A stretch of 59,416 nucleotides of DNA from Nevskia sp. (GTDB lineage Bacteria > Pseudomonadota > Gammaproteobacteria > Nevskiales > Nevskiaceae), in the NCBI RefSeq assembly GCF_023266035.1, contig NZ_JAHFRY010000009.1:1-59416 (forward strand), written 5' to 3'. Below, one piece after another: positions 14,748-47,767 of this stretch. Made by a program: the position numbers and the translations under genes. The first letter of the stretch is position 1, and each line of letters opens with the position of its first letter. Below the pieces are notes generated by a model, which had not been told where the DNA came from, did no database searches, and saw only the letters and a program-made list of their open reading frames with translations.

Positions 14748-14768
14748 CCGGATCGAAGCTTGATCCGG
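14748..14768. repeat. Inverted repeat in the leader of the acyltransferase gene
   Basis: CCGGATC and GATCCGG form a perfect 7-bp inverted repeat with a 7-base loop, 53 bases before the likely start codon of the PlsC-like gene. It could be an operator or a leader hairpin. There is no T-run after it. Confidence 0.4.
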
Positions 14769-14821
14769 TCTTCAATCAGACCAGCAGGTCAACCGCTCAG
14801 AAGAAAATCGACCCCACACTC

Positions 14822-16626: not shown

Positions 16627-16709
16627 TCTCTACAGCCAGCCGAACCGCCGACGCCGACAGCGGTCTGAGCGCTACCTTTCCAACCCGCCCACTTCTGACA
16701 GGAAACCCC

Positions 16710-17234
16710 ATGAGCAAGGAAAAGACCAAACCGAAGGCCCCCAAGCTGGCGCCAGCCACCAGCGAAGCGACGATCGACATCGGCATCAGCAAGGCCGACC
16801 GTGCCGCGATCGCCCACGGCCTGTCGCGCCTGCTGGCCGACGAGTACACGCTGTATCTGAAGACCCACAACTTCCACTGGAACGTCACCGGGCCGATGTT
16901 CAACACGCTGCACCTGATGTTCATGGGCCAGTACACCGAATCATCGCTGGCCGTGGATCTGGTCGCCGAGCGCATTCGCGCGCTGGGCTTCCCGGCGCCG
17001 GGCACCTACGGCCAGTACGCCAAGCTGTCGAGCATCGACGAAGACGAAGGCGTGCCGGCGGCGATGGACATGGTCAAAAAGCTGGTCAAGGGCCACGAGG
17101 CCTGCGCGAAAACGGCACGTTCGGTGTTCCCGCTCGCCGAAAAGGCCAGCGACGAGCCGACCGCGGACCTGCTGACCCAGCGCCTGCAGCTGCACGAAAA
17201 GACCGCGTGGATGCTGCGCTCGCTGCTCGAATGA
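16710..17234 (+). CDS. dps: Dps-family DNA-binding ferritin-like protein
   Basis: A 174-residue protein with the Dps ferroxidase signature [15 protein letters not shown] (residues about 50-64) and the downstream [11 protein letters not shown] helix holding the Asp/Glu ligands. A Lys/Pro/Ala-rich N-terminal tail of about 20 residues could bind DNA. It oxidises and stores iron with peroxide and protects DNA under stress. The ATG at 16710 has an AGGAAA ribosome site. A clean terminator follows the gene. Confidence 0.93.
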
Positions 17235-28202: not shown

Positions 28203-28822
28203 TGCGGGATCGATAGCCGCCGAATCGCTCGGTCATGCCAGCGCGCCAGCAGCAGCATCGCCAAGGTCGATCCGATCAGCGCCATCAGCATGTCGGACTG
28301 GGTATCCCACTGATCGCCCTGGGTGCCGAGAAAATCGTCGGCGTTCTGGCCGAGCGCGACCGCTGCCGCCCATTCGATCAGCTCGTAGATGGCGCTGATC
28401 GCCATCGCCACGCTGACCGACAGCAGGCCGACGATGAACGCGTGGCCGACGACGATGCGATGGCGGATCAACAGCTCGCGCGTCGCCAGCGCCGGCACGA
28501 AACCCTGCAGCAGATGACCGAGCTTGTCGTAGGGATTGCGGGACAGCGCGAACGCCTCCTGCACCCAGTTGCCGATCGGCACGCGGGCGTAGGTGTAAGC
28601 GCCGCCGCCGATCAGCACCAGCGCGTGCACGGCGATCAGCACGTAGAGCAAGGTGGTCAGCGGAAAACGCCGGCGGCTGAACCACAGCACTGGCGCGACT
28701 AGCACCACCGGCAGCACTTCCATGACCCAGGTCATGCGATCGAACGGTGCGATGGCCGAGGCGATCAGCGCCGCGGTCACCAGCAGGACCAGCGCCCAGT
28801 GCAGGCGGGAGTTGTCGTTCAT
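28199..28822 (-). CDS. DUF2238/YjdF-like integral membrane protein
   Basis: A 207-residue protein with about six hydrophobic helices. The conserved [14 protein letters not shown] and [14 protein letters not shown] ... [17 protein letters not shown] blocks are the DUF2238/YjdF signature with conserved His, Glu and Asp. Function unknown. Its start overlaps the dmpR stop by 4 bp, so it may be read through from dmpR. Its stop and that of tolC share the palindrome CTAG. Confidence 0.82.
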
Positions 28823-30666
28823 GTATTGGTGGTTTCTGGAGTGGCGCCGCGCCGAGCGGCTTTCAGACGATAGGCGAGCTGCGGCCGGGTGATGCCGAGC
28901 AGGCGCGCCGCCGCTGAAAGATTGCCGCTGGCCTGCGCCACGGCACGTTCGATCATCAGCGCTTCGATGCGATCGATCGACAGGCCCTCGGCCGCTCCAT
29001 TGCCGACCGCATCGAGCAGATCGGCAATGACCCGGCGGGTACGGACTTCGGGCGTCGCCTGTTCGACAAGCGGCGCGGCCTCGGCCGCCGCCTTCTGCTG
29101 ATCGCTGCGCAGACTGCCGCCACGATCGAGGCTCAAGCTGCCGCTGGCCAGTTGCTCGCCGCCGGAGAACAGGTGGAAAGCGTCGATAGCCCCGCCTTCC
29201 GGCGCCAGGATCATGCCGCGCTCGACGATGTTTTCCAGCTCGCGGATGTTGCCCGGCCAGTCATAGCCGAGCATCGCGTCGATCGCCCGCCCCGTGAAGC
29301 CGGTGACCTTGCGGGCATTGCGCAGATTGAACTTGCGCAGGAAGTGATTCATGAAGATCGGGATGTCTTCGCGGCGCTCGCGCAGCGGTGGCACGGTGAT
29401 CGGGAAGACGTTGAGACGGAAGAACAGATCCTCGCGGAAGCGCCGGGCGCGAACCTCCTCGCGGAGATCGAGATTGGTCGCCGCGACCAGCCGCACGTCG
29501 ACCTTGTGGGTCCGCGTGCCGCCAACTCTTTCGATCTCCCGCTCCTGCAGCGCGCGCAGCAGCTTGCCCTGCGCCGTCCAGCTGAGGATGCCGATCTCGT
29601 CGAGAAACAGCGTGCCGCCGTGGGCGCGCTCGAAGCGGCCCGGCCGGGCCGTGGTGGCCCCCGTGAAGGCGCCGCGCTCGACACCGAACAGTTCTGATTC
29701 GATCAGGGTTTCCGGAATCGCCGCGCAATTGATGGTGATGAACGGCCCGGCGCCGCGCGGGCTGACCCGGTGCAGGCTGCGCGCCAGCACTTCCTTGCCG
29801 ACGCCGCTTTCGCCGAGAAACAGCACCGTGGCCTGGGTATCGGCGACCCGGCGGACCATGTGGCAGGCGGCGTTGAAGCCGGCCGAGGCGCCGACCACGT
29901 CGGTATCGCCGAGCAGGTCCTGCGCGGCGCTGCCGATTGGTGAGGCCGCGCCGAGATCGGTGGGCGCCGACGCGGCGAGGCCGGCGGTCAGCGCATCGGC
30001 GCGCAGGAAGGCGAGATCGCCCGCCGCATCGTCCCATTCCTCGACCGGCTTGCCGATGATCCGGCAGTGGCTGGCGCCCTGTGCGCAGCACTGCACTTCG
30101 CGGAACAGCACCGGCCGGCCCATGAAGCGGCTGATGAAGCCGGAGGCGTAGCCGATCTGCTGCCAGCAGGCCGGTTCGCTGCCGATGCCGTACAGGCGGA
30201 TGTGTTCCTCGGCCTCCGAGGAACCGTGCCACAAGAACTCGCCGTGAAAATGCCCCTTCTCCTCGTCGACTTCCATCATCACCGGCTCGACCCGCACCGT
30301 GCCTTCGAGCATGTGCAGCTGCGGTCCGCCATAGATCGCGTTGGCGGCACCACCGCTGCCGCGCAGCTTTCGCGACAGCTCGGCATCGTGCGAACCGGAG
30401 TTGTAGCCGATGCGCGTCAGCAGACCGCGCGCACGATCAACGCCGAGGCTTTCGATCAACTCTCGGCGCAGCACGCCGAGCGCCGAGCTGTGCAACAGCA
30501 ACATGCGCTGGTCGTCCAGCCAGATGCGGCCCTGTTCCGGCTGAAAGCGAATACGAGCCAGCAGATCGGCAACGTCCGGATAGGTCAGCGCCGCCGGCAG
30601 CGGTGCCGCGCCCGGACTCTGGCCAGGCGAATTTTTCGCAGCGGCTGCAGGAGGCGATGCAGGCAT
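28819..30666 (-). CDS. dmpR: Sigma-54-dependent phenol-sensing activator (DmpR/MopR/PoxR family)
   Basis: A 615-residue activator. The XylR_N sensory domain and V4R lie at about residues 26-210. The AAA+ domain follows with Walker A GESGVGKE at 285-292 and the sigma-54 contact loop GAFTGA at 332-337. A Fis-type helix-turn-helix is at the end ([19 protein letters not shown]). Recalled MopR ligands line up with one constant offset of 12: phenol-contacting His118 and Trp146, and zinc Cys167, Glu190, Cys193, Cys201. Phenol would relieve autoinhibition and fire the divergent dmpK promoter. Confidence 0.95.
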
Positions 30667-30978: not shown

Positions 30979-31260
30979 ATGACCGTCGTTTCCCTGTACG
31001 CCCAGCGGGCCGCCGGGCCTGCCGATCCCAGCGCCCAGCAACGTTACGTCCGCCTGCGCGAGCACCGGCCGGACGGCTTCGTGATCTTCGATTTCGCCAT
31101 CGGCGATCCCTCGCTGGCCTGCGAACTGATCATGCCGATGGCCGCGTACCGCGAGTTCTGCGCCAGCAACCACGTCATCCACCTAAACGATGCCCAGGCC
31201 GCGCAGATCGATGCCGATGCGCTCAAGTGGCGTTACGGCCAGCCCGGCATCAGCGAATAA
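30979..31260 (+). CDS. dmpK: Phenol hydroxylase assembly/accessory subunit DmpK
   Basis: A 93-residue protein with the phenol hydroxylase K-subunit pattern RYVRLREHRPDGFVIFDFAIGDPSLACELIMP. In other systems DmpK is not part of the active enzyme but is needed to assemble the iron-loaded hydroxylase. It is the first gene of the operon, 27 bases before dmpL, with a purine-rich GGAGAGAGAG ribosome site. Confidence 0.93.
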   Translation: MTVVSLYAQRAAGPADPSAQQRYVRLREHRPDGFVIFDFAIGDPSLACELIMPMAAYREFCASNHVIHLNDAQAAQIDADALKWRYGQPGISE

Positions 31261-31287: not shown

Positions 31288-32292
31288 ATGACTGTCGAGA
31301 TCAGGACCAAGAGCGTCAAACCGCTCAGCAACAGCTTCGGCCATCTGCAGCGCCGCTTCGGCGACAAGCCGGCAAGCCGCTATCAGGAGGCGACCTACGA
31401 CATCCAGTCGTCGGCCAACTTCCATTACAAGCCGCTCTGGGATCCGGAGCGCGAGATGTTCGACGTCCGCCGCACGGCGATCACGATGAAGGACTGGTAT
31501 GCGCTGAAAGACCCGCGCCAGTTCTATTACGGCAACTACACGACCACCCGCGCCAAGCAGCAGGACGCGCTGGATCGCACCTTGGATTTCGTCGAGAAAC
31601 GCGACCTGCTGCGGGCGCTGCCGGCCGATACCCGCGCCTTGATCGAGCACGCGATCGTGCCGCTGCGTCACTACGAGTGGGGTGCGAACACCAACAGCGC
31701 CCACGTCGCCGCCTATGCCTACGGCACGGCGGTCACTTCGCCAGCGATGATGAACACCATGGATCGCCTGGGCATGGCGCAGCACATCTCGCGCATCGGC
31801 CTGCTGATCGACGGCAACAGCGGCGAATCGCTGCTCGCCTCGAAGACCACCTGGACCGATCACGCCGACTGGCAGGGCTTACGCCGCGAAGTGGAGCGCA
31901 TGTTCGTCACCCGCGACTGGTTCGAGGTGTTCATCGCTCAGATCCTGGTCGCCGATGCGCTGGTCTATCCGCTGTTCTTCCAGCATCTGGACTCGGCGAT
32001 CGCCGCCGGCAACGGTTCGGCACTGTCATCGCTGACCGACTACCTGATGCGCTGGTACGAAGAGACTGGCAAGTGGGTCGACGCGGTGATCAAGACTGCC
32101 GCCGCCGAGAACCCCGAGAACAAGGCGCTGCTGTCCGGCTGGACCGTGACCTGGCGTGATCGCCTGGTCACGGCGCTGGCGCCGATCGCGCAGAGCACCC
32201 TCGGCAACCAGTCCGAGGACGCGCTTGCTGCCGTCGTTGCCGCCTTCAATACCCGGGCGGCAAGGCTCGGGTGCGGCGACGCGCTTAAGTGA
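31288..32292 (+). CDS. dmpL: Phenol hydroxylase beta subunit DmpL
   Basis: A 334-residue structural (non-metal) subunit of the multicomponent diiron phenol hydroxylase. YDIQSSANFHYKPLWDPEREMFD and the LRHYEWGANTNSAHVAAYAYG block are typical of the beta chain. It pairs with DmpN and DmpO in the (LNO)2 hydroxylase. Its TGA stop lies inside the left arm of a strong 10-bp hairpin. Confidence 0.95.
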   Translation: MTVEIRTKSVKPLSNSFGHLQRRFGDKPASRYQEATYDIQSSANFHYKPLWDPEREMFDVRRTAITMKDWYALKDPRQFYYGNYTTTRAKQQDALDRTLDFVEKRDLLRALPADTRALIEHAIVPLRHYEWGANTNSAHVAAYAYGTAVTSPAMMNTMDRLGMAQHISRIGLLIDGNSGESLLASKTTWTDHADWQGLRREVERMFVTRDWFEVFIAQILVADALVYPLFFQHLDSAIAAGNGSALSSLTDYLMRWYEETGKWVDAVIKTAAAENPENKALLSGWTVTWRDRLVTALAPIAQSTLGNQSEDALAAVVAAFNTRAARLGCGDALK

Positions 32293-32413: not shown

Positions 32414-32710
32414 ATGACTGCTCCAGAAAAGAAAATGCTCCAGCCGGTCTTTATCGCGCTGCAAGCCAACAACGACACCATGCCGATCATCGAAGCGATC
32501 CGGCAGGACAACCCGAATGCCGTCGTCCACGAATACCCGGCGATGGTCAAGATCGATTGCCCGGGACGCCTGGTGATCAAACGGGCCTCGGTCGAGGAAC
32601 ATCTGGGCCGCGACTTCGACCTGCGGGAAATCCAGATCAACATGATTTCGATCGCCGGCAATGTCGACGAATCCGAAGACGAATTCACGCTCGAGTGGAG
32701 AACGGCCTGA
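32414..32710 (+). CDS. dmpM: Phenol hydroxylase regulatory protein DmpM (MmoB/DmpM family)
   Basis: A 98-residue cofactor-free coupling protein. PVFIALQANNDTMPIIEAIRQDNPNAVVHEYPAMVKIDCPGRLVI is the MmoB/DmpM family pattern. It binds the hydroxylase and tunes substrate and electron access to the diiron site. The 121-bp gap before it contains the double hairpin. Confidence 0.95.
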   Translation: MTAPEKKMLQPVFIALQANNDTMPIIEAIRQDNPNAVVHEYPAMVKIDCPGRLVIKRASVEEHLGRDFDLREIQINMISIAGNVDESEDEFTLEWRTA

Positions 32711-32772: not shown

Positions 32773-34401
32773 ATGGCCGCTGAAGGCAACGTAAAGCCCG
32801 CGAAGAAACTGAGCCTCAAGGAAAACTACGCGCTGCTGACGCGCGGACTCGGCTGGGAACCCAGCTACGAGAAGCACGAAGAGATCTTCCGCAACATCAG
32901 CTTCGAAGGCATCAAGATCCACGATTGGGAGAAATGGGAAGACCCATTCCGCCTGACCATGGATGCCTACTGGAAGTACCAAGGCGAGAAGGAGCGGAAG
33001 CTCTACGCGATCGTCGATGCTTTCCAGCAGAACAACGGCCAGTTCAACGTCACCGACGCCCGCTACGTGCAGGCGCTGAAGATCTTCATCAACGGCATCA
33101 CCGAACTCGAGTACGACTCGCATCGCGGCTTCAACATGCTTGCGCGCGAGTTCCCGGGCGTCGGTCCGCGCATCGCCGCGCAGATGCAGTCGCTCGACGA
33201 ACTGCGCCACGCGACCACGCAGATCCACACGATCAGCCAGTACGCGAAGTACTTCACCGGCATGAACGAGTTCCCGTACCAGTTCGATCGCGCCTGGTAT
33301 CTGTCGATTCCGAAATCGTTCTTCGAGGACGCCGTCACTTCCGGTCCGTTCGAGTTCATCGTCGCGATCAGCTTCGCGTTCGAGTACGTGCTGACCAACC
33401 TCGCGTTCATGCCGTGGATGTCCGGCGCGGCGTTCAACGGCGACATGGCCACGGTCAGCTTCGGCTTCTCGGCGCAAAGCGATGAAGCGCGGCACATGAC
33501 CCTCGGCATCGAGGTGATCAAGTTCCTGCTCGAACAGGATCCGGCCAATGTGCCGCTGGTCCAGAAGTGGATCGACAAGTGGTTCTGGCGCGGCTATCGC
33601 CTGTTGTCGCTACTGGCGACGATGATGGATTACATGCTGCCGAAGCGGGTCATGGCCTGGAACGAAGCCTGGGAAATCTATTACGAGCAGAACGGTGGCG
33701 CGCTGTTCGCCGATCTCGCCCGCTACGGCATCAAGCCGCCGAAGCGTGCGCCGGAAACCATCGCCGAGAAGGGCCATGTTGCCCACCAGATGTGGAGCGT
33801 GTTCTACGCCAACCGTGATGCCGTCGGCTTCCAGATGTGGCTGCCGTCCAATGAGGAAATGGACTGGATGTCCGAGAAGTATCCGGACACTTTCGACAAG
33901 TACTACCGGCCGCGCTACGAGTACTGGCGCGAAATGGAAAAGGCCGGCACGCCATTCAAGAACACCACGCTGCCGCAGCTCTGCCAGGTCTGCCAGTGGC
34001 CTTGCCTGTTCACCGAGCCGGACGATCCGACGACCTTGTCCCTGCGTGAAACCGAATACAAGGGCGAGACCTTCCACATGTGTTCGGACGGCTGCAAGGA
34101 CATCTTCGACGACACGCCGGAGAAGTTCGTGCACGCCTGGTTGCCGGTGCACCAAATCTATCAGGGCAACTGCTTCCTGCCCGATGTCGACCCGACCGCG
34201 CCCGGCTTCAACCCAATGTACGAAGCGCTGCGCTACATGGGCATCAAGCCCGGTGTCGATGGCGGTGATTTCAAGGGCAGCGCCGATGCGACCAACTGGG
34301 AGAAGTGGACTTCACGCCCGGCGAACATCCACGAAGGCGCCTACACCGATGCCGTTCGTGACACCAGCAATCCATCCGACGCCGCCCGCAAAGCAATCTG
34401 A
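32773..34401 (+). CDS. dmpN: Phenol hydroxylase large (diiron) subunit DmpN
   Basis: A 542-residue catalytic subunit that hydroxylates phenol to catechol with O2. The diiron ligands are visible as two EXXH motifs, DELRH (about residue 145) and DEARH (about 240), with the preceding Glu in ITELEYDSHRG (about 116). A YHS-type segment with Cys residues (CQVCQWPC ... MCSDGCKDIF) occupies about 405-450, as in other phenol hydroxylase N subunits. An additional C-terminal tail of about 40 residues extends past the common end. Confidence 0.96.
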   Translation: MAAEGNVKPAKKLSLKENYALLTRGLGWEPSYEKHEEIFRNISFEGIKIHDWEKWEDPFRLTMDAYWKYQGEKERKLYAIVDAFQQNNGQFNVTDARYVQALKIFINGITELEYDSHRGFNMLAREFPGVGPRIAAQMQSLDELRHATTQIHTISQYAKYFTGMNEFPYQFDRAWYLSIPKSFFEDAVTSGPFEFIVAISFAFEYVLTNLAFMPWMSGAAFNGDMATVSFGFSAQSDEARHMTLGIEVIKFLLEQDPANVPLVQKWIDKWFWRGYRLLSLLATMMDYMLPKRVMAWNEAWEIYYEQNGGALFADLARYGIKPPKRAPETIAEKGHVAHQMWSVFYANRDAVGFQMWLPSNEEMDWMSEKYPDTFDKYYRPRYEYWREMEKAGTPFKNTTLPQLCQVCQWPCLFTEPDDPTTLSLRETEYKGETFHMCSDGCKDIFDDTPEKFVHAWLPVHQIYQGNCFLPDVDPTAPGFNPMYEALRYMGIKPGVDGGDFKGSADATNWEKWTSRPANIHEGAYTDAVRDTSNPSDAARKAI

Positions 34402-34409: not shown

Positions 34410-34844
34410 ATGCCCGTCTGCAATGTCATCGTCCTGAAAGGCCATCCGCGAGCCACTCTGAAGCAGCTGGTGGTGGAGTGCTCGAACACCCTGGCCCGGA
34501 TCATCGGCGCACCGAAGGATAGGCTCGAAGTCTGGGTCACCGAAGTGGAGCCAGCACTCTGGGGCCTCGACGGCCGGCCCGGTGACGAGGTGCTGCAGAC
34601 CGTCGCGCGCAGCGAGATCGAGATGCCATTCATCCGCATGGTGCTGCTGCAGGGCCGGCCGGTGGAACAGCATCACCAGCTGATCGCCGAGATGACGGCG
34701 GTCGTCGCCAAAGTGCTCGGCGCCAATGCCGAGCGCATCCGCCTGCAGATCGACGAAGTGCACCCGGATCGCTGGGGCATCGGCGGCGTGCCGGCGAGTG
34801 TGCGGCGGGCGACGGAGATCGCGGCGCGGGCTGCGACGGCCTGA
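34410..34844 (+). CDS. Fused two-domain tautomerase-family protein within the phenol hydroxylase operon
   Basis: A 144-residue protein built of two 4-oxalocrotonate-tautomerase-like units. Each has an initial MP (Pro2 and Pro73), a beta-alpha-beta body and an ending WGLDG or WGIGG. Pro2 would be the N-terminal catalytic base after Met removal; Pro73 is internal and cannot act the same way. The gene starts 8 bases after dmpN and ends 29 bases before dmpO, a position with no gene in the classical dmpKLMNOP order. Fused 4-OTs are a known subgroup; the role in phenol metabolism is unknown. Confidence 0.8.
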   Translation: MPVCNVIVLKGHPRATLKQLVVECSNTLARIIGAPKDRLEVWVTEVEPALWGLDGRPGDEVLQTVARSEIEMPFIRMVLLQGRPVEQHHQLIAEMTAVVAKVLGANAERIRLQIDEVHPDRWGIGGVPASVRRATEIAARAATA

Positions 34845-34873: not shown

Positions 34874-35239
34874 ATGCCCATCAAGGCCATCACGCCGGAC
34901 TACCACGGCGATTTCAAGGACAGCGTCGACAAGTTTCGCGGCAACCAGATCGTCAACATCCATTGGGAAAAGCACCTGATGTTCGCCTGGCCGATGTGCG
35001 TGCCGCTGCCGCCGACGATGCCGTTCGGCACGCTGATCGAAGGCGTGCTGCCGGGCATCTTCGGCGCCCATCCGAACTTCAAGCAGATCGACTGGAGCCA
35101 GGTCGAATGGAAGACTTCGAAAGGCCCGTTCAAGCCGGACCCGGCGAAGTCGCTGGTCGACAACGGCATCGGCCACAAGACCACGATCAGCTTCAGCACG
35201 CCGGGGCTTGCTGGCGTTAATGGCAATGCGGTCTGCTGA
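34874..35239 (+). CDS. dmpO: Phenol hydroxylase gamma subunit DmpO (P4)
   Basis: A 121-residue small subunit of the hydroxylase. The sequence YHGDFKDSVDKFRGNQIVNIHWEKHLMFAWP and the GVLPGIFGAHP block are typical DmpO/P4. It completes the (LNO)2 core together with DmpL and DmpN. Confidence 0.93.
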   Translation: MPIKAITPDYHGDFKDSVDKFRGNQIVNIHWEKHLMFAWPMCVPLPPTMPFGTLIEGVLPGIFGAHPNFKQIDWSQVEWKTSKGPFKPDPAKSLVDNGIGHKTTISFSTPGLAGVNGNAVC

Positions 35240-35342: not shown

Positions 35343-36398
35343 ATGAGCTACGAACTCACCATAGAACCGCTCGGCCAGACCATTTCGGTCGAAGACGAGC
35401 AAACCATCCTCGACGCCTGCCTGCGCGCCGGTATCTGGCTGCCGCACGCCTGCTGTCATGGCCTGTGCGCGACCTGCAAGGTGCAGGTGGTCGATGGCGA
35501 GGTCGAGCACGGCGATGCCTCGCCGTTCGCGCTGATGGATTTCGAACGCGACGAGAAGAAGACCCTGGCCTGCTGCGCCACCTTGCAATCCGACGTCACC
35601 ATCGAAGCCGATATCGACGAAGAGCCGGATGCCGAGATCATTCCGGTGCGCGACTTCGAAGGCAGCATCAGCCGCATCGAAGACCTGACGCCGACGATCA
35701 AGGGCATCTGGGTGCAGCTCGATGTAGCGATGCATTTCCAGGCTGGCCAGTACGTCAACGTGACGATCGGCGATCTCGGTTTTTCGCGGCCGTTCTCATT
35801 GGCCAATCCGCCGGCTACCGGCAACGAGATCGAGCTGAACGTGCGCATCGTCCCCGGTGGTGTCGGCACCGCCTGGCTGCATCAGCAATTGCAGGTCGGT
35901 GATCGAGTCAAGATCGCCGGGCCGTATGGCCGCTTCTTCGTGCGCAAGTCGGCGAGCAGCCCGAGCCTGTTCATGGCCGGCGGCTCGGGCCTGTCGAGCC
36001 CGCGCAGCATGATTCTCGATCTGCTCGAAGCCGACAGCGATCAGCCGATCACCCTGGTCTACGGCCAGCGTTCGATGGCCGAGCTGTACTACCACGAGGA
36101 GTTCAAGGCGCTCGCGGAGAAGTACCCTAACTTCACCTATGTGCCGGCGCTGTCGAACGAGCCGGACAGCAGCGACTGGTCCGGCTTCCACGGCTTCATC
36201 CACGATGCGGCGAAGGCCCATTTCGACAATGACTTCCGCGGTCACAAGGCCTATCTCTGCGGCCCGCCGCTGATGATTGACGCCTGCATCACCACCTTGA
36301 TGCAGGGCCGGCTGTTCGAGCGCGACATCTACCAGGAGAAGTTCCTGTCGGCGGCCGATGCCCAGCAGGTGCGCAGCCCCTTGTTCAAGAAGATCTGA
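35343..36398 (+). CDS. dmpP: Phenol hydroxylase reductase DmpP
   Basis: A 351-residue NADH-dependent electron donor for the hydroxylase. An N-terminal plant-type [2Fe-2S] ferredoxin domain has ligands C37, C42, C45 (ACCHGLCATC) and a Cys near 77-78. An FAD-binding barrel at about 105-205 carries RPFSLANPP. An NAD domain follows with FMAGGSGLSSPRSM and the terminal CGPPLMIDACI. Last of the standard phenol hydroxylase genes. Confidence 0.95.
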   Translation: MSYELTIEPLGQTISVEDEQTILDACLRAGIWLPHACCHGLCATCKVQVVDGEVEHGDASPFALMDFERDEKKTLACCATLQSDVTIEADIDEEPDAEIIPVRDFEGSISRIEDLTPTIKGIWVQLDVAMHFQAGQYVNVTIGDLGFSRPFSLANPPATGNEIELNVRIVPGGVGTAWLHQQLQVGDRVKIAGPYGRFFVRKSASSPSLFMAGGSGLSSPRSMILDLLEADSDQPITLVYGQRSMAELYYHEEFKALAEKYPNFTYVPALSNEPDSSDWSGFHGFIHDAAKAHFDNDFRGHKAYLCGPPLMIDACITTLMQGRLFERDIYQEKFLSAADAQQVRSPLFKKI

Positions 36399-36502: not shown

Positions 36503-38449
36503 ATGACTGTGCAAACCACCGCTGCGGGCGCCACCGTTGCACCTGACGTCACTCGCCTGACGGCTGGCGACGACGCGCTACGTCACTACTGCAGCGCCGG
36601 CGAGTTTCCGGTGCTGGTGATGACCGCCGCGCATCTGTCCGGCGATGCCTCGCTGCTGAAACCGGAGTGGACGCCGACCTATCAGTTGGCGACCTATGCC
36701 AGCCAGCTTTCCGAAGACCAGGAAGCCGCAGGCCGCGCGCAGTGCTTCGAGGTGCTGCGCAAGTTCCGCGACAGCGGCAAGCCGGTGCCGGGCCGTCCCG
36801 GCTACGACTTCATGCAGGCGGTGCTGGTCTGGATCTGCGGCAAGGACGCCGAGCCGCTGCAGCGTTTGCTCAACGAGCAGATCGTGTTCGGCGAGGACGA
36901 TCCGCAGCGGCCGGCGTGGACGAAAGCTCAGCTCGCGCCGGACCGCAGGTTCCATGTGGTCATCGTCGGCGCTGGCGAAAGCGGCCTGCTGACAGCGCAT
37001 CGCCTGAAACAGGCTGGCGTGCCGTTCACCATCTACGAGAAGAACGGCGACGTCGGCGGCACCTGGCTCGAGAACAGCTATCCCGGCTGCCGCGTCGACA
37101 TCAACAGCTTCATCTACAGCTACACCTTCGCGCAGCGCATCTGGCCGGAATACTTCGGCGCCCGCGACGAGGTGCTGGCTTATCTCAAGGACTGCGCAAG
37201 CCTGCTTGGCTTGCGCGAGCACATTCGCCTGAACCGCGAAGTGCTTGCGACGACCTGGGACGAGGCCACGGCGCAATGGACGATCAAGCTGCGTGGCCCG
37301 AACGGAGAGGAGACGGCGCAGGCGAACGTCGTGGTCAGCGGTGTCGGCCAGCTGAACCGGCCAAGCTGGCCGAACATCGAAGGCCGCGACAGCTACGCCG
37401 GCCAGCACTTCCATTCGGCGCGCTGGGATGCGTCGGTGAATCTCGAAGGCAAGCGGGTCGGTGTGATCGGCACCGGCGCCAGCGCCACGCAGTTCATTCC
37501 GCATGTCGCGCGAGTTGCCGCGCAACTCGACATCCACGTCCGCACCATTCCCTGGCTGCTGCCGACGCCGCATCTGCACGCACAGACCGAGGACGGCCTG
37601 CGCTGGCTGATGGCGAATCTGCCGAACTACATCCAGTGGCATCGCCTGTTCACCTTCACGCCGCAGCTGATCGGTTTCCTCGATACCGCGATCGTCGACC
37701 CGAGCTATCCGCCGACCGAGATCGCGATCTCCGCCGCCAACGATGCCGTGCGCCAGGCGCTGACCGGCTGGGCCGAATTCCAGATCGCCGATCGTCCCGA
37801 GCTGCGGCCGCTGCTGGTGCCGAAGGTGCCGCCGGGTTCCAAGCGGCTGCCGCGCGACAACGGCACCTGGGTCGCGACCCTGAAGCGCAACAACGTCAAG
37901 GCGATCACCACGCGCATTGAGCGGATCACGCCGAAGGGCATCAGGACCGTCGATGGCGTCGACCACGAATACGACGTGCTGATCTACGGCACCGGCTTCA
38001 AGGCCTCCGAGTTCTTGATGCCGATGCAGGTGATCGGCCGTGGCGGCCATGATCTGCACACGGTCTGGAACAGCGACGCCCGCGCCTACCTGGGCGCCAC
38101 GATCAGCGGCTTCCCGAATCTGTTCTGCCTGTATGGCCCGAACACCAATCTGGTGCTGCACGGTGCCAGCATCATCTACATCTCCGAGTGCGCCGCGAAC
38201 TACGTGCTCGAAGGCGTGCGGTTGCTGCTGGAGAAGAACCTCAAGGCGATCGACGTGAAGCCGGAGATCTACGCGCAGTACAACGAGCGCATCGATGAAG
38301 CGAACGGGCTGCGCGCCTGGGGCTATTCGAAGGTCAGCAGTTGGTACAAGAACGCCAAGGGCCGGGTCACCCAGAACTGGCCATTCACCGGGCTGGAGCT
38401 GTGGCGGCGCACGCGGCAGATCGAGCCGCAGGACTACACACTGAGTTGA
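36503..38449 (+). CDS. Type I Baeyer-Villiger monooxygenase (4-hydroxyacetophenone monooxygenase-like)
   Basis: A 648-residue FAD/NADPH monooxygenase. The first about 145 residues form an N-terminal extension like that of 4-hydroxyacetophenone monooxygenase. They are followed by the FAD motif VIVGAGESG (about 154-162) and the BVMO fingerprint YAGQHFHSARWD (about 296-307, FxGxxxHxxxWP/D). The NADPH motif GVIGTGASATQ comes next. It converts a ketone to an ester; the substrate here is unknown. It lies 104 bp after dmpP on the same strand with a GAGGAG ribosome site, so it may share the operon. Confidence 0.85.
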   Translation: MTVQTTAAGATVAPDVTRLTAGDDALRHYCSAGEFPVLVMTAAHLSGDASLLKPEWTPTYQLATYASQLSEDQEAAGRAQCFEVLRKFRDSGKPVPGRPGYDFMQAVLVWICGKDAEPLQRLLNEQIVFGEDDPQRPAWTKAQLAPDRRFHVVIVGAGESGLLTAHRLKQAGVPFTIYEKNGDVGGTWLENSYPGCRVDINSFIYSYTFAQRIWPEYFGARDEVLAYLKDCASLLGLREHIRLNREVLATTWDEATAQWTIKLRGPNGEETAQANVVVSGVGQLNRPSWPNIEGRDSYAGQHFHSARWDASVNLEGKRVGVIGTGASATQFIPHVARVAAQLDIHVRTIPWLLPTPHLHAQTEDGLRWLMANLPNYIQWHRLFTFTPQLIGFLDTAIVDPSYPPTEIAISAANDAVRQALTGWAEFQIADRPELRPLLVPKVPPGSKRLPRDNGTWVATLKRNNVKAITTRIERITPKGIRTVDGVDHEYDVLIYGTGFKASEFLMPMQVIGRGGHDLHTVWNSDARAYLGATISGFPNLFCLYGPNTNLVLHGASIIYISECAANYVLEGVRLLLEKNLKAIDVKPEIYAQYNERIDEANGLRAWGYSKVSSWYKNAKGRVTQNWPFTGLELWRRTRQIEPQDYTLS

Positions 38450-40540: not shown

Positions 40541-40593
40541 TCGGGGACGCGATCAACAGGTCGATGCGCGGGCCGCGACTTCGGTCAGAGGCT

Positions 40594-41343
40594 TTACGGC
40601 AGGCCCTTGCGGCGGCCGGCGTCCATGAACAAGGTGCCGCCGGCCAGGGCATCGGCCTCCGGCGCCAGCAGCAGTTCGATCGCCCAGGCGATCTGCTCGA
40701 CCGTGGTGAAGGCGCCGATCGCCGATTCCTGACGCATCTCGTCGAGCACCGCGTCGGCGCTGATGCCGTCGCGTTCGCCGCGGGAAGTGGCGACCCGGCG
40801 CAGGCGATCGGTATCCGCCGGGCCGGGCGCAACCAGATGCGCCGTCACGCCGCGCGATCCGTAAGCCCAGGAGTACTGGCGGACGACGTTGGCGAGCGCC
40901 GCGTTGGCGACGCCCGCAGTGGCGGCATAAGCGGTGGGTTCGAAGCCGTAGTGGCCGCCGATCGCGACGATGCGCGAGCCGCGTTGCAGTTGACCGTCCG
41001 CCGCGCGCACCAGCCGCAGCAGGCCGCCGACCTTGATGTTGACGGCATCGACAACCGCCGCTGTCGGCGCGCTCATCACGCCGCCAGCAGTGGCCACGCC
41101 GGGGCCATGCACGAGCATCCGCACTGGGCCGTCGATCATCGCCGCGATGGCGGCGATCGAAGTATCCGCAGAGATATCGGCGACGCAGGCGACGATGTTC
41201 GGCTGACCGGCTGCAAGCGCGGCGACGCTGTCGGCACTGCGAGCGACGGCGATCACTTTCAGGCCGCGTGCCGCCAGACGGCGCGCGATGACCTGGCCCA
41301 TCGCGCCGGTGGCGCCGACGACGATGGCGGTTTCTTGTCTCAT
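40594..41343 (-). CDS. SDR-like protein lacking the catalytic lysine
   Basis: A 249-residue Rossmann protein with VVGATGAMGQVIARRL at the N-terminus and APGPADTDRLRR. At the active site, AYAATAGVANA has Tyr but Ala in place of the Lys of YxxxK, so standard SDR chemistry is unlikely. It is downstream of the catechol 2,3-dioxygenase gene on the same strand, 96 bp away across an array of 7-bp repeats, and may be the last gene of the meta operon. Confidence 0.75.
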   Translation of the reverse strand: MRQETAIVVGATGAMGQVIARRLAARGLKVIAVARSADSVAALAAGQPNIVACVADISADTSIAAIAAMIDGPVRMLVHGPGVATAGGVMSAPTAAVVDAVNIKVGGLLRLVRAADGQLQRGSRIVAIGGHYGFEPTAYAATAGVANAALANVVRQYSWAYGSRGVTAHLVAPGPADTDRLRRVATSRGERDGISADAVLDEMRQESAIGAFTTVEQIAWAIELLLAPEADALAGGTLFMDAGRRKGLP

Positions 41344-41439: not shown

Positions 41440-42372
41440 TCACGTCAGCACATTCAGGAAGCTTTCGCGCGGCGTGAAGTCCTGCGAGAAAGTCGCCGCG
41501 CCCAGCTCGGTCGTGTCCCAGACCAGGGTCGGCGTGTCCGGATAATGGATATAGCCTTCCGAGAACACTTCGTTGCGGTTGCCGTTGGGATCGAAGAAAT
41601 AGATCGTCGAGCCGCGCGTGATGCCATGACGGTTCGGGCCGACATCCACCGGCACCCGATACTTGCCGATGCGATCTGCGGCCTTGACCACGTCATGCGC
41701 CGATTCGAGCAGGAACGAAGCGTGGTGGAACTTGTTCTTTTCCGGCTGCAGGACAAACGCGATGTCATGCGGCGTGGTCGAGCAGCTGAGGAACACGGCC
41801 AGCGAAATCTTCGCTTCGTGATGGATGAGCTTCTCGGACAGATCGAACTCGAACACTTCGGTGAACAGCTGCACGCACTCATCGAGGTTGTGGCCGCCGA
41901 GCAGCAGGTGATCGAGACGGTTGATGTTGAAGCCGCGGACGACGCCGTCGTCCGGCACGACACCCGGGTTGTGCAGGCCCATGGTGTTGCCGATCTGATC
42001 CTTGTGCGCATAGAGCTGCATCGTATGGCCGGACGGCAGCACGAACTCCAGACGCCGGCCGCTCTTCGGATAGACGCCGGCGGCGATGTGCTTCACCTCG
42101 AGGCCGAAAGCCTTGATCTTCGGTTCGAGACGATCAAGCGTCGCATCGTCATAAACCTTGAACGCGAAGTAATCCATGCCAGGACGATCGCTGGGAATCA
42201 GCACGATCGAGTGATGGTCATGCTCGTCCCAGCACTTGTAGTAGACGCGGCCTTCGGCGTCTTCGAGCACTTCATGCAGACCCATGATGTGGTCGTAATG
42301 GTGTTTCGATTTCTTCATGTCGGTGACGCGGATCGCGATCTCGCCGACTCTCAGGACGCCTCTCATAGACAT
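41440..42372 (-). CDS. dmpB: Catechol 2,3-dioxygenase
   Basis: A 310-residue extradiol dioxygenase (XylE/DmpB class) that opens catechol to 2-hydroxymuconic semialdehyde with Fe(II) and O2. Iron ligands visible: His155 (RLDHLLL), His216 (KFHHASF) and Glu268 (NRNEVFSEG); the active-site Tyr is about 258 (STIYFF). The ATG at 42372 follows AGGAG by 7 bases. It is the last meta-pathway gene in this operon, after dmpG, while in classical dmp/xyl order it comes early. Confidence 0.95.
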   Translation of the reverse strand: MSMRGVLRVGEIAIRVTDMKKSKHHYDHIMGLHEVLEDAEGRVYYKCWDEHDHHSIVLIPSDRPGMDYFAFKVYDDATLDRLEPKIKAFGLEVKHIAAGVYPKSGRRLEFVLPSGHTMQLYAHKDQIGNTMGLHNPGVVPDDGVVRGFNINRLDHLLLGGHNLDECVQLFTEVFEFDLSEKLIHHEAKISLAVFLSCSTTPHDIAFVLQPEKNKFHHASFLLESAHDVVKAADRIGKYRVPVDVGPNRHGITRGSTIYFFDPNGNRNEVFSEGYIHYPDTPTLVWDTTELGAATFSQDFTPRESFLNVLT

Positions 42373-42455: not shown

Positions 42456-43526
42456 TCAGGCCGCTTTGTCGTTGAGCAGACCGCGCTCGCGCGCCATGGT
42501 CAGTGCCGTGTCTTCGATCATGTCTTCCTGGCCGCCGATCATCTTGCGTTTGCCGAGTTCGACCAGGATGTCGCGCGCCGGCAAGCCGTACTTGGCACCG
42601 AGCCGCTTGGCATGCAGCAGGAACGTCGAATAGACGCCGGCGAAGCCTAGGGTCAGCGAAGCACGATCGACGCGCACCATCTGATCCATCATCGGCACGA
42701 TCAGGTCTTCGGCCATGTCCATCAGCTTGAACAGATCGCAACCGGTGTCGATGCCCATGCGATCGCAGACCGCGACGAACACTTCCAGCGGCGTGTTGCC
42801 GGCACCGGCACCGAGGCCGGCCACCGAGGCATCGATGCGCGAAGCACCTTCCTCGATCGCGGCAATCGAGTTGGCGATGCCCATGCCGAGGTTGTGATGG
42901 CCGTGGAAGCCGATCTGGGTTTCCGGCTTCAGTACATCGCGCAAGGCACGAACGCGACGCTTCACATCCTCCGGCAGCATGTAGCCGGCCGAGTCGGTGA
43001 CATAGACGCATTCGGCGCCGTAGCTCTCCATCAACTTGCCCTGCACCGCCAGGCCTTCCGGCGTATTCAGGTGCGCCATCATCAGGAAGCCGACGGTGTC
43101 CATGCCCAGCTTGCGGGCATAGGCGATGTGCTGCGGCGTGGTATCGGCCTCCGTGCAGTGAGTCGCCACGCTGACGCTGCGCACGCCGTGGTCGTAGGCC
43201 GACTGCAATTCCTTCATCGTGCCCATGCCCGGGATCAGCAGCACCGAGACCTTGGAGCGCTTGATGTGCGGCATCACCGCAGTCCAGTACTCCTCGTTGG
43301 AGTGCATGGCGAAGCCGTGCTGCAGCGAATTGCCACCGAGGCCGCCGCCATGGGCAACCTGCATCAGCGGCACGCCGGCAGCGTCGAGCGCCGAAGCAAC
43401 CGCGACCATCTGTGCCGTGGAAATCTGCTCGCGCTTGGCGTGCATGCCATCGCGCAGGCTCATGTCGTGGATCAGGACCTTGCGGCCCTTCAAGTCGATG
43501 AAACCGTCGTTGGTCGTCGTGCTCAT
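42456..43526 (-). CDS. dmpG: 4-hydroxy-2-oxovalerate aldolase DmpG
   Basis: A 356-residue Mn-dependent aldolase that splits 4-hydroxy-2-oxovalerate to pyruvate and acetaldehyde, channelled to Dmp[13 protein letters not shown] (Arg/Asp of the HMG-CoA lyase-like fold, about residues 19-30) and [15 protein letters not shown] (metal His pair) are visible. It lies 2 bases after dmpF, matching the physical DmpFG complex. Confidence 0.97.
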
Positions 43527-43528: not shown

Positions 43529-44434
43529 TCAGGCTGCCTTCAGTTCGATGCGTCCCGCGAGAATTCCTTCGGCAAACATCTCGGCCGTACGCGTCGCAGC
43601 GGCGGTCATGATGTCGAGGTTGCCGGCGTAGGTCGGCAGGTAGTCGCCAAGGCCCTTCACTTCCATGAACACGGCCACCTTGTTGCCATCGAATACCGGG
43701 CCATTGACCAGGCGATAACCAGGCACGTACTTCTGCACTTCGCCGATCATCTGCTGCACCGATTCGCGGATGGCGGCCTCGTCCGGCTTGTCGTCGGTCA
43801 GGCAGTAGATGGTGTTGCGCATCATCATCGGCGGCTCGGCCGGATTGACCACCACCAGCGCCTTGCCCTTGCGCGCGCCGCCTACGACTTCGATGGCGTT
43901 CGAGGTCGTGTAGGTGAACTCGTCGAGATTGGCGCGGGTGCCGGGGCCGATCGATTTCGAGGCGACGCTGGCGATGATCTCGGCGTAGCTGACGCCCTGT
44001 ACGCGCGACACGGCGCGGACGATCGGAATCGTCGCCTGGCCGGCGCAGGAAATCATGTTGAGGTTCATCGCGCCCTTGGCGGCGTGCTCGGCGAGATTCA
44101 CCGGCGGCACACACAGCGGGCCGATCGCGGCTGGCGTCAGATCGATCATCATCACGCCGAGCGCCGTCAGCTTGTCCGAGTTCGACTTGTGGACGTAGGC
44201 GCTGGTGGCATCGAAAGCGATCTGGATGCCGTCTTCGAGCACATGTGGCAGCAGGCCATCGACACCTTCATGCGTGGTCTTCAGGCCCATGTCGCGGGCC
44301 ATCTTGAGACCTTCGGAATTCGCATCGATGCCGACCATCCACACCGGTTCGAGCAGCGGCGAACGCTGGATCTTGTAGATCAGATCGGTGCCGATGTTGC
44401 CGGAGCCGATCAAGGCACAACGGATCTTTTTCAT
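43529..44434 (-). CDS. dmpF: Acetaldehyde dehydrogenase (acylating) DmpF
   Basis: A 301-residue CoA-acylating dehydrogenase turning acetaldehyde to acetyl-CoA. The N-terminal Rossmann motif is [12 protein letters not shown]; the catalytic Cys130 is in [10 protein letters not shown]. Its start overlaps the 3' end of the tautomerase gene by 4 bp. It forms the channelling complex with DmpG. Confidence 0.97.
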
Positions 44435-44685
44435 GATGCGGCGGCCTCCCGATGCAACTGGCCATTGACGCCGTTCACGGCAGCCGGCGCCGGCATCTTG
44501 CCGTTCTGTGCTGCGGTGACGCCGCCCACTGAAAAGTCCTCGCCGCCCATCTCGTGGATCAGGATGCGAACGTTCTCGGGCTTGACGCCAAGCACCTCGA
44601 CGACGGTCTCGGTGACGCGCTGTGCGAGCCTGCGTTTCTGCTCGACCGTGCGGCCTTCGAGCAGGTTGAACTGGATGATGGGCAT
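44431..44685 (-). CDS. dmpI: 2-hydroxymuconate tautomerase (4-oxalocrotonate tautomerase)
   Basis: An 84-residue tautomerase with catalytic Pro2 ([20 protein letters not shown]) and an Arg in the expected helix. The canonical enzyme is about 62-63 residues; this one carries about 20 extra residues, Ala/Asn/Gly rich, at the C-terminus. It ketonises 2-hydroxymuconate in the oxalocrotonate branch. Upstream of dmpF with a 4-bp overlap. Confidence 0.92.
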
Positions 44686-44706
44686 GAGGGTTCTCGGGAA
44701 GTGGAT

Positions 44707-45792
44707 TCAGGGACTTTCGACGGCGGACATCGCATACACGCGACGACTCGCAGCCGGCACTTGTCCTTCGGCGTCGATCATCTTGCGCAGCAGGCGTCGG
44801 ACCTTGATCGGGCCGGCGTCATTGCAGATCAGCACCGGATGCAGACCGAAGAAATCATCGGTGCCCATCTCGGCGTGCACGGCTTCGATGACCGGTCCGT
44901 CCTCGGTCTCGAAGGCGGCATGCATGGCCTGGATCTTGGCCTTGTTGTACTCGCCGTCTTCGACCAGATGATTGCGTCGCGTCGCGAAGAAGTAGTGCGT
45001 GGTGTCGGCGCTTTCCGGCGTACAGGTATGCAGGTCGTACTGGCCGACGCAGTCGATGAGATCGAGATTCTTCGTCGGGTCCTGCACCGCGCCGACCGAC
45101 AGCTGGATGTTGGCCGGCGCCGTCCAGGTGATCTCGAAGTAATGCCGCGCGGGGCCCAGCGGCTCCGGCATGAACGGCGAAAAGATCATCAGCGGCGGCT
45201 GCTGCGTCCACTCGGATCGCGAGGTGACGGTGGTCGACGTCTCGCTCAGCTTTGGCGTCAGCGGCGACAGCTGGCCGCGGGTGGTGATGATCTCGCCATG
45301 CACGTGATCGATATGGCTCAAGTCCATTACGTTGTCGGTGATCAACTCGTAGTTCGCTTTCATGTGCATGTAGGTCGCAGCCACCGCGTTGGGATGGCCT
45401 TCCTCGAGCGGACTGAAGTCCGGCAGTTTTGAAGCGTCTGCAGCGGCCTCGCCCATCCAGATCCAGATGAAGCCATAGCGTTCCAGCAGCGGGTAGACGC
45501 GCACGCGCGCACTCGGCGGCGTTGCGCCGGTGCCATGCGGGTTGTGCGTGCAGCGGCCGGAGCAGTCGAAGCGCAGGGCGTGGTAGAGGCAGGACACTTC
45601 GTCGCCGACGCGCTTGCCGAGATGCAACGGCGCGAAACGATGCGGACAACGGTCATGCATCGCGACCGGCGTACCGTCCTGTTTCCGGTAGATCAGGATG
45701 GAGGTGTCGAGAATCTTGCGGTGGAACAGCGCAGTGGCGTCGACTTCGGTCGATATCGCAGCGACATACCAGACGTTCTGAAGGGCTTTCAT
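44707..45792 (-). CDS. Rieske non-heme iron oxygenase, VanA-like (second of pair)
   Basis: A 361-residue alpha-subunit-only Rieske oxygenase. The [2Fe-2S] ligands are C49-x-H51 (CPHRFAPL) and C68-x2-H71 (CLYHAL). The mononuclear iron motif is [13 protein letters not shown] (about residue 155). The architecture is like vanillate O-demethylase and dicamba/other O-demethylases that need a separate reductase; none is encoded nearby. It lies between the paralogous oxygenase and the tautomerase in the meta operon. Substrate unknown; a methoxylated catechol precursor such as guaiacol is one guess. Confidence 0.85.
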
Positions 45793-45804: not shown

Positions 45805-46926
45805 TCAGGCCATCGCGGGTTCGGCGTGGGCGGCCGTAGTGGTCGCCGTCGCGCTGTCGCCGGCTTCGGCACGCAGCATCTCGTCGAGCAGCCGCAGGAT
45901 TTTCGAAGGACCGGCGTCGTGGATGATCGACACGGTCTGGAAGTCCGGCCGCTCGCTGACCCGGACGTGCTGCGCCTCCAGCACCTGGCGATCCTCGGTG
46001 AACGCGTCGTCGAGGTTGTCGCGCAGCAGTTCGGACAGGCCCGGGAATTCGCAGTGCTTCGCCGCGCCCCAGGAATAGTAGTAATCGACCGATTCGGCAT
46101 CGTTCGGCGTCACCGCCTGTGAAGTCCAGGTGTCGGCGATCATCGGGCCGGTCGGCGCGCCTTCGTCGCGGTCGTCGGCGATATGCACGCGGAAATGCAG
46201 CACCCAGGTGCAGGGAATCGTGTGGGTGACGTCGAAGTGCAGATCGAACAGCGTGCCGGGCGGAAACAGATGCGACAGGAAGGTGCTGATCGGCGACTTG
46301 CGCACCACGTATTCGGTGCGCATGCCGTTCGGCAGCATCGTGAAAGTCGGCTTGATGTGCGTGTACTTGTCGCGCGTCATCGGATCTGGCGCACCCAGCG
46401 TGTCGCGATGAACCCAGACCAGATGGGTCAGGTCGGCGAGATTGGCGATCTCCAGCCGATAGCTCGCATTGACGTGCATCTGCGAGGTCTTGACGTTCCA
46501 GTCCGGGTTGCCCGGGCCGATGGCATGCGGGATCAGCTTTTCATCGGCCTTGGCCGGATCGCCCATCCAGACCCAGACCCAGTTGTCACGCTCGACGACC
46601 GGGAAGGCGCGCACGCAGGCGCGCGGCGGAATGTGGTCCTGACCGGGAACTTCGTTGCATTTGCCGTCCGGACCGAAGCGCAGGCCGTGGTACATGCAGC
46701 GGATGTTGTCGCCTTCCTTCTGACCCAGCGACAGCGCCGCCTGACGATGCGCGCAGCGGTCTTCCAGTGCCACGATCGGACCACTCGGCTTGCGATACAG
46801 CACCACTCGTTCACCGGCGATCTTGCGAGCCACCAGCGCACCCTTGGCCTGGGTGAGCGAGTTCTTCTGGCTCTGCGTGAACAGGTAGTCCCAGCCGGCG
46901 TTGTACCAGGCATTCTTGACGAACAT
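45805..46926 (-). CDS. Rieske non-heme iron oxygenase, VanA-like (first of pair)
   Basis: A 373-residue paralogue of its neighbour. The Rieske ligands are C58-x-H60 (CAHRQAAL) and C77-x2-H80 (CMYHGL); the iron motif is NLADLTHLVWVH (about residue 160). The ATG at 46926 has a GGAGGAG ribosome site. A 12-base gap leads to the second oxygenase. The two may work on different substrates or as a mixed trimer; neither has a dedicated reductase or beta subunit in this window. Confidence 0.85.
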   Translation of the reverse strand: MFVKNAWYNAGWDYLFTQSQKNSLTQAKGALVARKIAGERVVLYRKPSGPIVALEDRCAHRQAALSLGQKEGDNIRCMYHGLRFGPDGKCNEVPGQDHIPPRACVRAFPVVERDNWVWVWMGDPAKADEKLIPHAIGPGNPDWNVKTSQMHVNASYRLEIANLADLTHLVWVHRDTLGAPDPMTRDKYTHIKPTFTMLPNGMRTEYVVRKSPISTFLSHLFPPGTLFDLHFDVTHTIPCTWVLHFRVHIADDRDEGAPTGPMIADTWTSQAVTPNDAESVDYYYSWGAAKHCEFPGLSELLRDNLDDAFTEDRQVLEAQHVRVSERPDFQTVSIIHDAGPSKILRLLDEMLRAEAGDSATATTTAAHAEPAMA

Positions 46927-46973
46927 TGCAGTCTCCTCCATCGCGGCTCTGCGGCCTTGTGTGCTTGCGAAAC

Positions 46974-47756
46974 TCAGACGAAGCGGAAGGACACCGAACC
47001 CATGTCCTGGAAGCGCGCGGTGATGCAGTCGCCGGCTGAAACCGGGATCGCTTCGGTGATGCCACCGGTCATCACATAGCTGCCCGCCGGCAGCACTTCG
47101 CCACGGGAGGCCAAGTGCTTGACCAGCATCACCACGGCATTGGCCGGATGATTCAGCACGGCGGCGCTGGCACCGAGCGCCATGATTTCGCCGTTCTTCT
47201 CGATGACCACGCCAATCGTGCGCAGATCCAGTTCGCGCGGATCGCGCGGCCGGCCACCGGTGACGTAACGCGACGAGGAACCGTTGTCGGCGATCACGCT
47301 GACCAGATCGAACTTGAACTTCTCGTAACGCGAGTCGATGACTTCGACGGCCGGGATGATGTAGTCGGTCGCCACCAGCACCTGCTCGATGGTGAGGTCG
47401 CCTTTCAGTTCGGCCTTGGTCACGAAAGCGATCTCGGCCTCGACTCGCGGATGCACCAGTTCCTTGATGTCGATCGCGCTGTTCTCGGGGCGCGAGAAGC
47501 TGGCCATCAGGATGCCGAAGCTCGGCTCGTCGACGCCCATCTGCAGCATCTTGGCTTTCGAGGTCAGACCGGCCTTGAGGCCGACGCAGCGATCGCCGCG
47601 GGCGATCCAGCGGCGGCGCAGTTCATCCTGCACCGCATAGCTGTCTTCGATGCTCATCGACGGATACTCGTCGGTGAGCTTGGTCATGGTGGTCGCATGA
47701 TCCTGCGCGTTGAGCACGCGGTCGGTCAGCTTGTTGATGATCGTGGTGTCGAGCAT
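46974..47756 (-). CDS. dmpH: 2-oxo-3-hexenedioate decarboxylase (4-oxalocrotonate decarboxylase) DmpH
   Basis: A 260-residue enzyme that decarboxylates 4-oxalocrotonate to 2-hydroxypenta-2,4-dienoate with Mg2+. VGLKAGLTSKAKMLQMGV, HPRVEAEIAFV, FKFDLVSVIADNGSSSRYVTGGR and MTGGITEAIPV match DmpH/XylI rather than the related hydratase. 11 bases after dmpE; the two enzymes form a complex in other bacteria. Confidence 0.93.
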   Translation of the reverse strand: MLDTTIINKLTDRVLNAQDHATTMTKLTDEYPSMSIEDSYAVQDELRRRWIARGDRCVGLKAGLTSKAKMLQMGVDEPSFGILMASFSRPENSAIDIKELVHPRVEAEIAFVTKAELKGDLTIEQVLVATDYIIPAVEVIDSRYEKFKFDLVSVIADNGSSSRYVTGGRPRDPRELDLRTIGVVIEKNGEIMALGASAAVLNHPANAVVMLVKHLASRGEVLPAGSYVMTGGITEAIPVSAGDCITARFQDMGSVSFRFV

Positions 47757-47767
47757 GGTCTTGGCCT

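Follow-up and report, generated by a model that had tools for sequence, protein, structure and literature searches.

A fused 4-oxalocrotonate tautomerase between dmpN and dmpO in a Nevskia phenol hydroxylase operon: a likely enzyme of the meta-cleavage pathway

Introduction

The closest described systems are two fused tautomerases of the 4-oxalocrotonate tautomerase (4-OT) type, Fused 4-OT of Burkholderia lata (PDB 6BLM) and Linker 2 of Pusillimonas sp. T7-7 (PDB 5UNQ). Like the protein described below, both have two beta-alpha-beta halves and one N-terminal proline. According to the portion of PMC5818174 that was available, both are proficient 2-hydroxymuconate tautomerases, the active site of Linker 2 uses Arg-71 and Arg-99' of the second half, and Arg-39 was lost on the path to cis-CaaD. 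In this portion, the activities of the fused 4-OTs are given without pathway context. Based on Table 1 of PMC6710988, aphE of Rhodococcus rhodochrous EP4 and R. jostii RHA1 has been proposed as a 5-alkyl-2-hydroxymuconate tautomerase, and in the excerpted text of that paper the aphE cluster accounts for nine of the 16 genes with the strongest upregulation in EP4 on 4-ethylphenol. At the annotation level, two further clusters are similar: Dechloromonas aromatica RCB has a 144-aa tautomerase beside a 254-aa oxidoreductase (PMC2907700, Table 2), and the phenol cluster of Zoogloea oleivorans ends with an SDR and a tautomerase (PMC7012976, figure legend). As far as this table and legend go, the SDR-tautomerase pair of both species lies in the meta operon, as in most fused-tautomerase loci described below, but the tautomerase is not located between dmpN and dmpO. 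Among the matches listed from the open-licence PMC literature, mostly titles and abstract openings, a tautomerase between these two genes is not mentioned, which is weak evidence of absence.

Gene and genomic context

The window, i.e. the whole stretch of DNA analysed, comprises 59,416 nucleotides of a Nevskia sp. contig. An open reading frame at 34410-34844 on the plus strand starts with ATG and encodes a protein of 144 residues with prolines at positions 2 and 73. This protein, hereafter T1, matches the Pfam family Tautomerase (PF01361) in two stretches with an E-value of 3.1e-20, and both halves pass the family cut-off of 22 bits when searched singly (25.6 and 50.8 bits). The residues of note are P2, H12, E40 and W51 in the first half and P73, R83, R111 and W122 in the second, and the two halves carry the motifs WGLDG and WGIGG, respectively. 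An earlier note on this DNA had described a double 4-OT-like protein with Pro2, Pro73 and a WG[LI]xG motif per half, which is borne out by the reading frame and the two PF01361 matches. As also noted there, a free N-terminal base can be provided by Pro2 alone. Judged by homology and residue alignment, T1 is a fused two-domain 4-OT-type tautomerase.

T1 starts 8 nt after the stop codon of dmpN and ends 29 nt before the start of dmpO, confirming its place within the phenol hydroxylase operon with tight spacing. Its third-position GC content is 0.848, compared to 0.847-0.877 for dmpL, dmpN, dmpO and dmpP. A search of 146 relatives retrieved T1 at 90-95% identity in five genomes of the same genus (G002, G005, G010, G011 and G014), and the dN/dS across the 15 pairs of these six T1 copies ranges from 0.032 to 0.145. 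Therefore, T1 is not a chance ORF, and it is under purifying selection. The host genus is Nevskia-like, and several of its genomes are draft assemblies or MAGs. No further fused copy was found in a whole-genome search of G000, the genome of the window.

The operon is preceded on the minus strand by a XylR/DmpR-type sigma-54 activator (28819-30666; Pfam XylR_N, V4R and Sigma54_activat). On the plus strand, T1 follows a dmpK-like phenol hydroxylase subunit (30979-31260; PF06099), a dmpL-like subunit (31288-32292; PF02332), a dmpM-like regulatory protein (32414-32710), assigned from its place and matches to annotated MmoB/DmpM proteins rather than by family search, and the dmpN-like alpha subunit (32773-34401; PF02332, Phenol_Hydrox, and YHS). 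It is followed by a dmpO-like subunit (34874-35239; PF04663, Phenol_monoox), a dmpP-like reductase (35343-36398; Fer2, FAD_binding_6 and NAD_binding_1) and a flavin monooxygenase of 648 aa (36503-38449), all on the plus strand. This monooxygenase is also found in G002, G010 and G016, together with a SnoaL-like gene, and may allow substrates other than phenol to be used.

A SnoaL-like protein and a GlxA/AraC-type regulator lie downstream, and beyond them a minus-strand meta-cleavage operon ends with catechol 2,3-dioxygenase (C23O) and an SDR. In the direction of transcription, this operon contains 2-oxopent-4-enoate hydratase (dmpE, 47768-48553; TIGR03220) and 2-oxo-3-hexenedioate decarboxylase (dmpH, 46974-47765; TIGR03218), both with approximate starts, two tandem genes (45805-46941 and 44707-45792), a dmpI-like short 4-OT (44506-44691; tautomerase family match), acetaldehyde dehydrogenase (dmpF, 43529-44434; TIGR03215), 4-hydroxy-2-oxovalerate aldolase (dmpG, 42456-43526; TIGR03217, with the nearest ATG taken as start), C23O (41440-42372; TIGR03211) and an SDR-fold protein (40594-41343), the usual neighbour of fused tautomerases. 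The sole NCBIfam match of the tandem genes is the 4beta-methylsterol monooxygenase SdmA, with 97.7 and 84.9 bits, far under the cut-off of 600. T1 is thus distinct from the meta-operon tautomerase, as the earlier note had it. DmpI shares the Pro-1/Arg-11/Arg-39 chemistry and the meta pathway with T1; however, it is a single short domain encoded separately.

Active site

Residues were counted in 41 of 44 rows, leaving out L069, L078 and the outgroup L041. P2, R83, R111 and W122 are invariant in all 41 T1 and T2 sequences (T2 being a more distant fused clade, see below), and P73 is kept in 40, so a loss of Pro2 across the family, which would have spoken against the earlier note, did not occur. 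Position 12 is His in all 20 T1 sequences. Position 40 is E, Q, F or M in all of these, while it is Arg in all 21 T2 sequences. The first half of T1 lacks the Arg-11 and Arg-39 positions, so T1 is not simply a duplicated 4-OT. W122 presumably corresponds to Phe-50 of 4-OT.

Aligned to 4-OT and read against the available text of PMC5818174, R83 and R111 of T1 correspond to Arg-71 and Arg-99' of Linker 2. As these arginines match those of Linker 2 and are invariant, the second half of T1 is probably catalytic, and not merely structural, a possibility raised in the earlier note. From the conserved residues, the base would therefore come from the first half, and the second half would grip the carboxylates. 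T1 thus shares three traits with the fused 4-OTs: two 4-OT-like units in one chain, a Pro after the initiator Met and, by alignment, the Arg11' and Arg39'' equivalents in the second half. With the Arg39'' equivalent R111 retained throughout, it does not share the loss of this residue described for the cis-CaaD subgroup.

Compared to the described proteins, T1 resembles Linker 2 in having both catalytic arginines in the second half, and 6BLM in having GH at the Arg11 position of the first half. It differs from Linker 2 in position 40, since Linker 2, based on the same partial text, keeps Arg-39 in its first half, and from 6BLM in six more residues between the halves in the alignment. Similarity is low with the single sequence (E 8.3e-9 to 6BLM and 0.13 to 5UNQ) and reaches 1.6e-16 and 8.9e-9, respectively, with the profile. 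Alignment A3 holds 28 of 29 references plus P0001, L048 being omitted as its protein collapsed with that of L047.

Homologues, the SDR partner and dmpI

A species-genome collection was scanned for homologues with two peptide patterns, by which relatives can be missed, and tblastn with the window proteins gave the gene order in flanks of up to 10 kb. The scan returned 43 loci, of which four belong to the genus (L042-L045), 15 are T1 relatives, ten are T2 and 14 are short or unclassified tautomerases. The T1 relatives outside the genus (L046-L060) are 42-57% identical to T1; L047 and L048 encode the same protein. T2 (L061-L068, L070 and L077) lies on one side of a branch with UFBoot 97 and SH-aLRT 85 in a tree of 42 of the 44 sequences, from which L069 and L078 were left out because their frames are over-long and enclose just one tautomerase domain.

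An SDR lies directly upstream of T1 in ten of the 15 loci outside the genus (L046, L050-L053 and L055-L059). In two others (L049 and L054) T1 is located between C23O and a semialdehyde dehydrogenase, and in three (L047, L048 and L060) no aromatic genes are close by. One of these three, the lone T1 (L048) on Dechloromonas contig G152:C31, is about 12 kb away from a complete-looking C23O/hydroxylase/meta operon (L146), beyond the fetched flanks, which has its own dmpI, SDR and T2. Phenol hydroxylase genes were found near T1 in at least five of the 15 loci: complete in L058, K and P only in L050, cut by the locus end in L051 and L053, and an L fragment at the contig edge in L057. In L050 (698-3428), dmpK, dmpP, SDR and T1 follow one another, with no match to dmpL, M, N or O, which looks like a collapsed hydroxylase-meta cluster. 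Homologues scattered away from diiron monooxygenases had been named as a refutation of the tautomerase-hydroxylase link; the link holds within the genus but is weak outside it, where T1 homologues accompany the meta-operon SDR and C23O more than the diiron enzyme. In contrast to Fused 4-OT and Linker 2, the home of the T1 clade is mostly in catechol meta operons.

The association with the SDR is even closer for T2, which directly follows an SDR in all 12 loci (the ten above plus the plasmid loci L039 and L040). The window SDR has orthologues (E <= 1e-30) in 16 of the 146 relatives, and these same 16 genomes, and no others, contain the 18 T1/T2 hits of at least 47 bits. The next hits have at most 39 bits; the threshold was set after this gap was seen, and the hits below it were not each examined for a second domain. 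Among the relatives, T2 adjoins the SDR in most cases, with the T2 of G052 at about 8 kb from it; for a second SDR of G030, no T2 is listed in the vicinity. A class-wide co-occurrence test in 369 genomes added nothing, with the SDR at E <= 1e-45 in G000 only; G000 is likewise the only one with a full-length match to the tautomerase alignment, nine others matching the second half only. No fused tautomerase match was found beside the SDR split over two frames on Hydrogenophaga plasmid L183. At three Nocardioides loci (L069, L078 and L080), a single-domain tautomerase lies directly before a distantly related SDR of this type, and the SDR-tautomerase pairing therefore reaches Actinomycetota.

Classical SDRs have a catalytic YxxxK motif after a Ser. 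Within a set of 39 distinct, complete SDR frames (230-275 aa, E <= 1e-30), none has YxxxK at the active-site stretch, where Asn, as read by eye, takes the place of Lys; only two rows have a YxxxK elsewhere, at residue 201. The protein therefore departs from classical SDRs in this motif, and an ordinary dehydrogenase reaction seems doubtful. Such SDRs occur in many meta-cleavage operons, and 34 of the 39 sequences have a GHYG motif. An SDR-fold partner lacking the usual catalytic motif marks a gap in the meta pathway.

The gene order published for EP4 matches that of T2 locus L040 (Rhodococcus sp. PD04), whose SDR falls at a locus tag skipped in the PMC6710988 table. Equated by gene order only, aphE appears to encode a fused tautomerase of the T2 type that follows an SDR. 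It would belong to the T2 clade rather than to T1; T1 and the PD04 protein share 33% identity.

A more novel but less likely reading is that this SDR and a fused tautomerase form a new two-gene module, both chromosomal and plasmid-borne, which adds a step to meta-cleavage and whose tautomerase slot may be filled by T1 or T2, with repeated separate T2 deletions and a probable T1 loss in one lineage, so that the scars would document a reciprocal loss. A related and similarly doubtful reading is the first alternative for T1. Here, T1 or T2 and the SDR serve a new side step of meta-cleavage, e.g. for a 5-substituted or misisomerised ring-cleavage product, and dmpI handles plain 2-hydroxymuconate. 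The frequent SDR company, the identical set of 16 genomes and the missing YxxxK fit this reading, as does the presence of dmpI in seven of nine T2 loci with dmpH in view (L039, L040, L063, L064, L146, L148 and L149, not L067 and L068; in L040, dmpI sits in a neighbouring operon). However, the T2 of G052 is away from its SDR, no substrate of the SDR is known, and none of the nine outside-genus T1 operons with dmpC and dmpH (L046, L051-L053 and L055-L059) has a dmpI beside T1, which makes T1 the local candidate there.

In these operons, T1 may thus have replaced dmpI. In Sphaerotilus sulfidivorans D-501 (G156), whose genome completeness is not stated, T1 is the sole PF01361 match. On the other hand, eight of the nine genomes have other PF01361 matches elsewhere, several of them beside aldolase/decarboxylase genes of a second operon; these could supply the activity and weaken the argument. 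Within the genus, a simple replacement is ruled out, as all six T1 carriers have dmpI; T1 is therefore dispensable there for plain 2-hydroxymuconate.

Apparent exchange of T1 and T2 in the genus

Within the genus, both T1 and T2 are found in G002 and G010, T2 only in G016, and T1 only in G000, G005, G011 and G014. The window has a T2 scar at 40553-40584 (minus strand), behind the SDR stop, consisting of the last 32 nt of the lost T2 gene; 29 of these are identical to the T2 of G002, and the match scores 23 compared to at most 12 in 60 shuffles. The scar of G011 keeps T2 positions 1-19 and 332-403 and that of G005 positions 2-59, while no T2 remnant scoring above shuffles was found in G014. Because G011 and G005 each retain stretches that the other lost, neither deletion can be derived from the other; an inactivation of T2 may nevertheless have been shared before both. 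Overall, T2 is lost in four of the six T1 carriers and in none of the ten SDR genomes that lack T1 (p 0.008 in a Fisher test that ignores kinship).

In a tree of SDR and C23O DNA (without G010), the T1 carriers enclose G016, which branches with G000 and G002 (99.9/100) and has therefore probably lost T1. The hydroxylase trees give no firm place to G016, with support of 53.5/54 on DNA and a grouping with G014 (91.5/92) on protein. Since related genomes retain either T1 or T2, as interchangeable genes would leave them, this pattern suggests that both can stand in for each other. In this respect, the T2 scars of sister genomes read like a complementation experiment carried out by evolution.

Based on the conserved residues, the company of T1 homologues and this exchange, T1 is likely a post-ring-cleavage (alkyl-)2-hydroxymuconate tautomerase that takes over from T2 and does not act on the hydroxylase. 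Purifying selection on T1 and the function proposed for aphE fit this reading. Against it speak the dmpI of all six carriers, the additional PF01361 genes in eight of the nine genomes with dmpI-less T1 operons, the three T1 loci with no aromatic genes close by, the retention of both T1 and T2 in G002 and G010, the SDR and T2 arrangements of G030 and G052, and the altered first half of T1. Plain 2-hydroxymuconate may well be the exact substrate of T1. Three T1 chains would form a trimer, in which the free N-terminal Pro2 would move a proton while R83 and R111 of the second halves would hold the two carboxylates of the dienol, presumably 2-hydroxymuconate or 5-alkyl-2-hydroxymuconate. After ketonisation, DmpH would decarboxylate the product. 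The older, SDR-linked T2 would have occupied the end of the meta operon, with T1 as a redundant enzyme in the hydroxylase operon, where its place should lead to co-induction with the hydroxylase. What looked like a hydroxylase-linked tautomerase would thus become a relocated downstream enzyme. This would assign a clade of fused 4-OTs to a likely pathway, with a role that can be tested.

Place in the hydroxylase operon

The earlier note had suggested that T1 could help the phenol hydroxylase or act on a ring-hydroxylation by-product, and its tightly spaced position between dmpN and dmpO in six genomes would be consistent with this. However, in a survey of 48 distinct N-O junctions, T1 is present in six, all from the one Nevskia-like genus, so among these junctions the N-tautomerase-O order is conserved only there. 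At the remaining 42, the gap does not exceed 219 nt and has no T1 match, two of the gaps being negative owing to start-codon choice (L116 and L174). They include seven more hydroxylase operons of the six carrier genomes (L115, L116, L118, L119 and L127-L129). Therefore, T1 is not a dmpKLMNOP component that generally accompanies the hydroxylase operon. Moreover, G016 has a window-type hydroxylase, with a dmpN 94% identical, and an N-O gap of 190 nt (L120) without T1. The SDR and C23O company of T1 relatives, mostly in meta operons, and the apparent substitution for T2 also speak against this role, which we regard as quite improbable. A hydroxylase accessory was rejected on the junction survey and the T1-less sister operon of G016.

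Equally improbable is that T1 is a dispensable extra copy without a present role. This would agree with the presence of dmpI and with G016 keeping the operon without T1, but the low dN/dS does not fit, and neither does the finding that, of the 16 SDR genomes, all those lacking T2 carry T1.

In trans-CaaD, alpha and beta are asymmetric, one giving Pro and the other Arg. It is very improbable that T1 dehalogenates or hydrates haloacrylate-like products in the manner of CaaD. Despite a similar asymmetry of its halves (one Pro, one Arg), it retains R111, and the family-searched window genes include no recognised dehalogenation gene. The dehalogenase role was disfavoured on the retained R111. A post-ring-cleavage tautomerase taking over from T2 is therefore the reading that we prefer.

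Two other features were observed around the N-O junctions. In G005 (L045), a second regulator-K-L-N-O hydroxylase set is located at 12067-17145, right after the T1-containing operon, and this genome has three dmpO matches. In the N-O gap of G016 (L120/L149), which has a predicted fold of -69.9 kcal/mol, a long palindromic repeat lies where the sister genomes have T1; this repeat has a single weak match within the window, with three mismatches.
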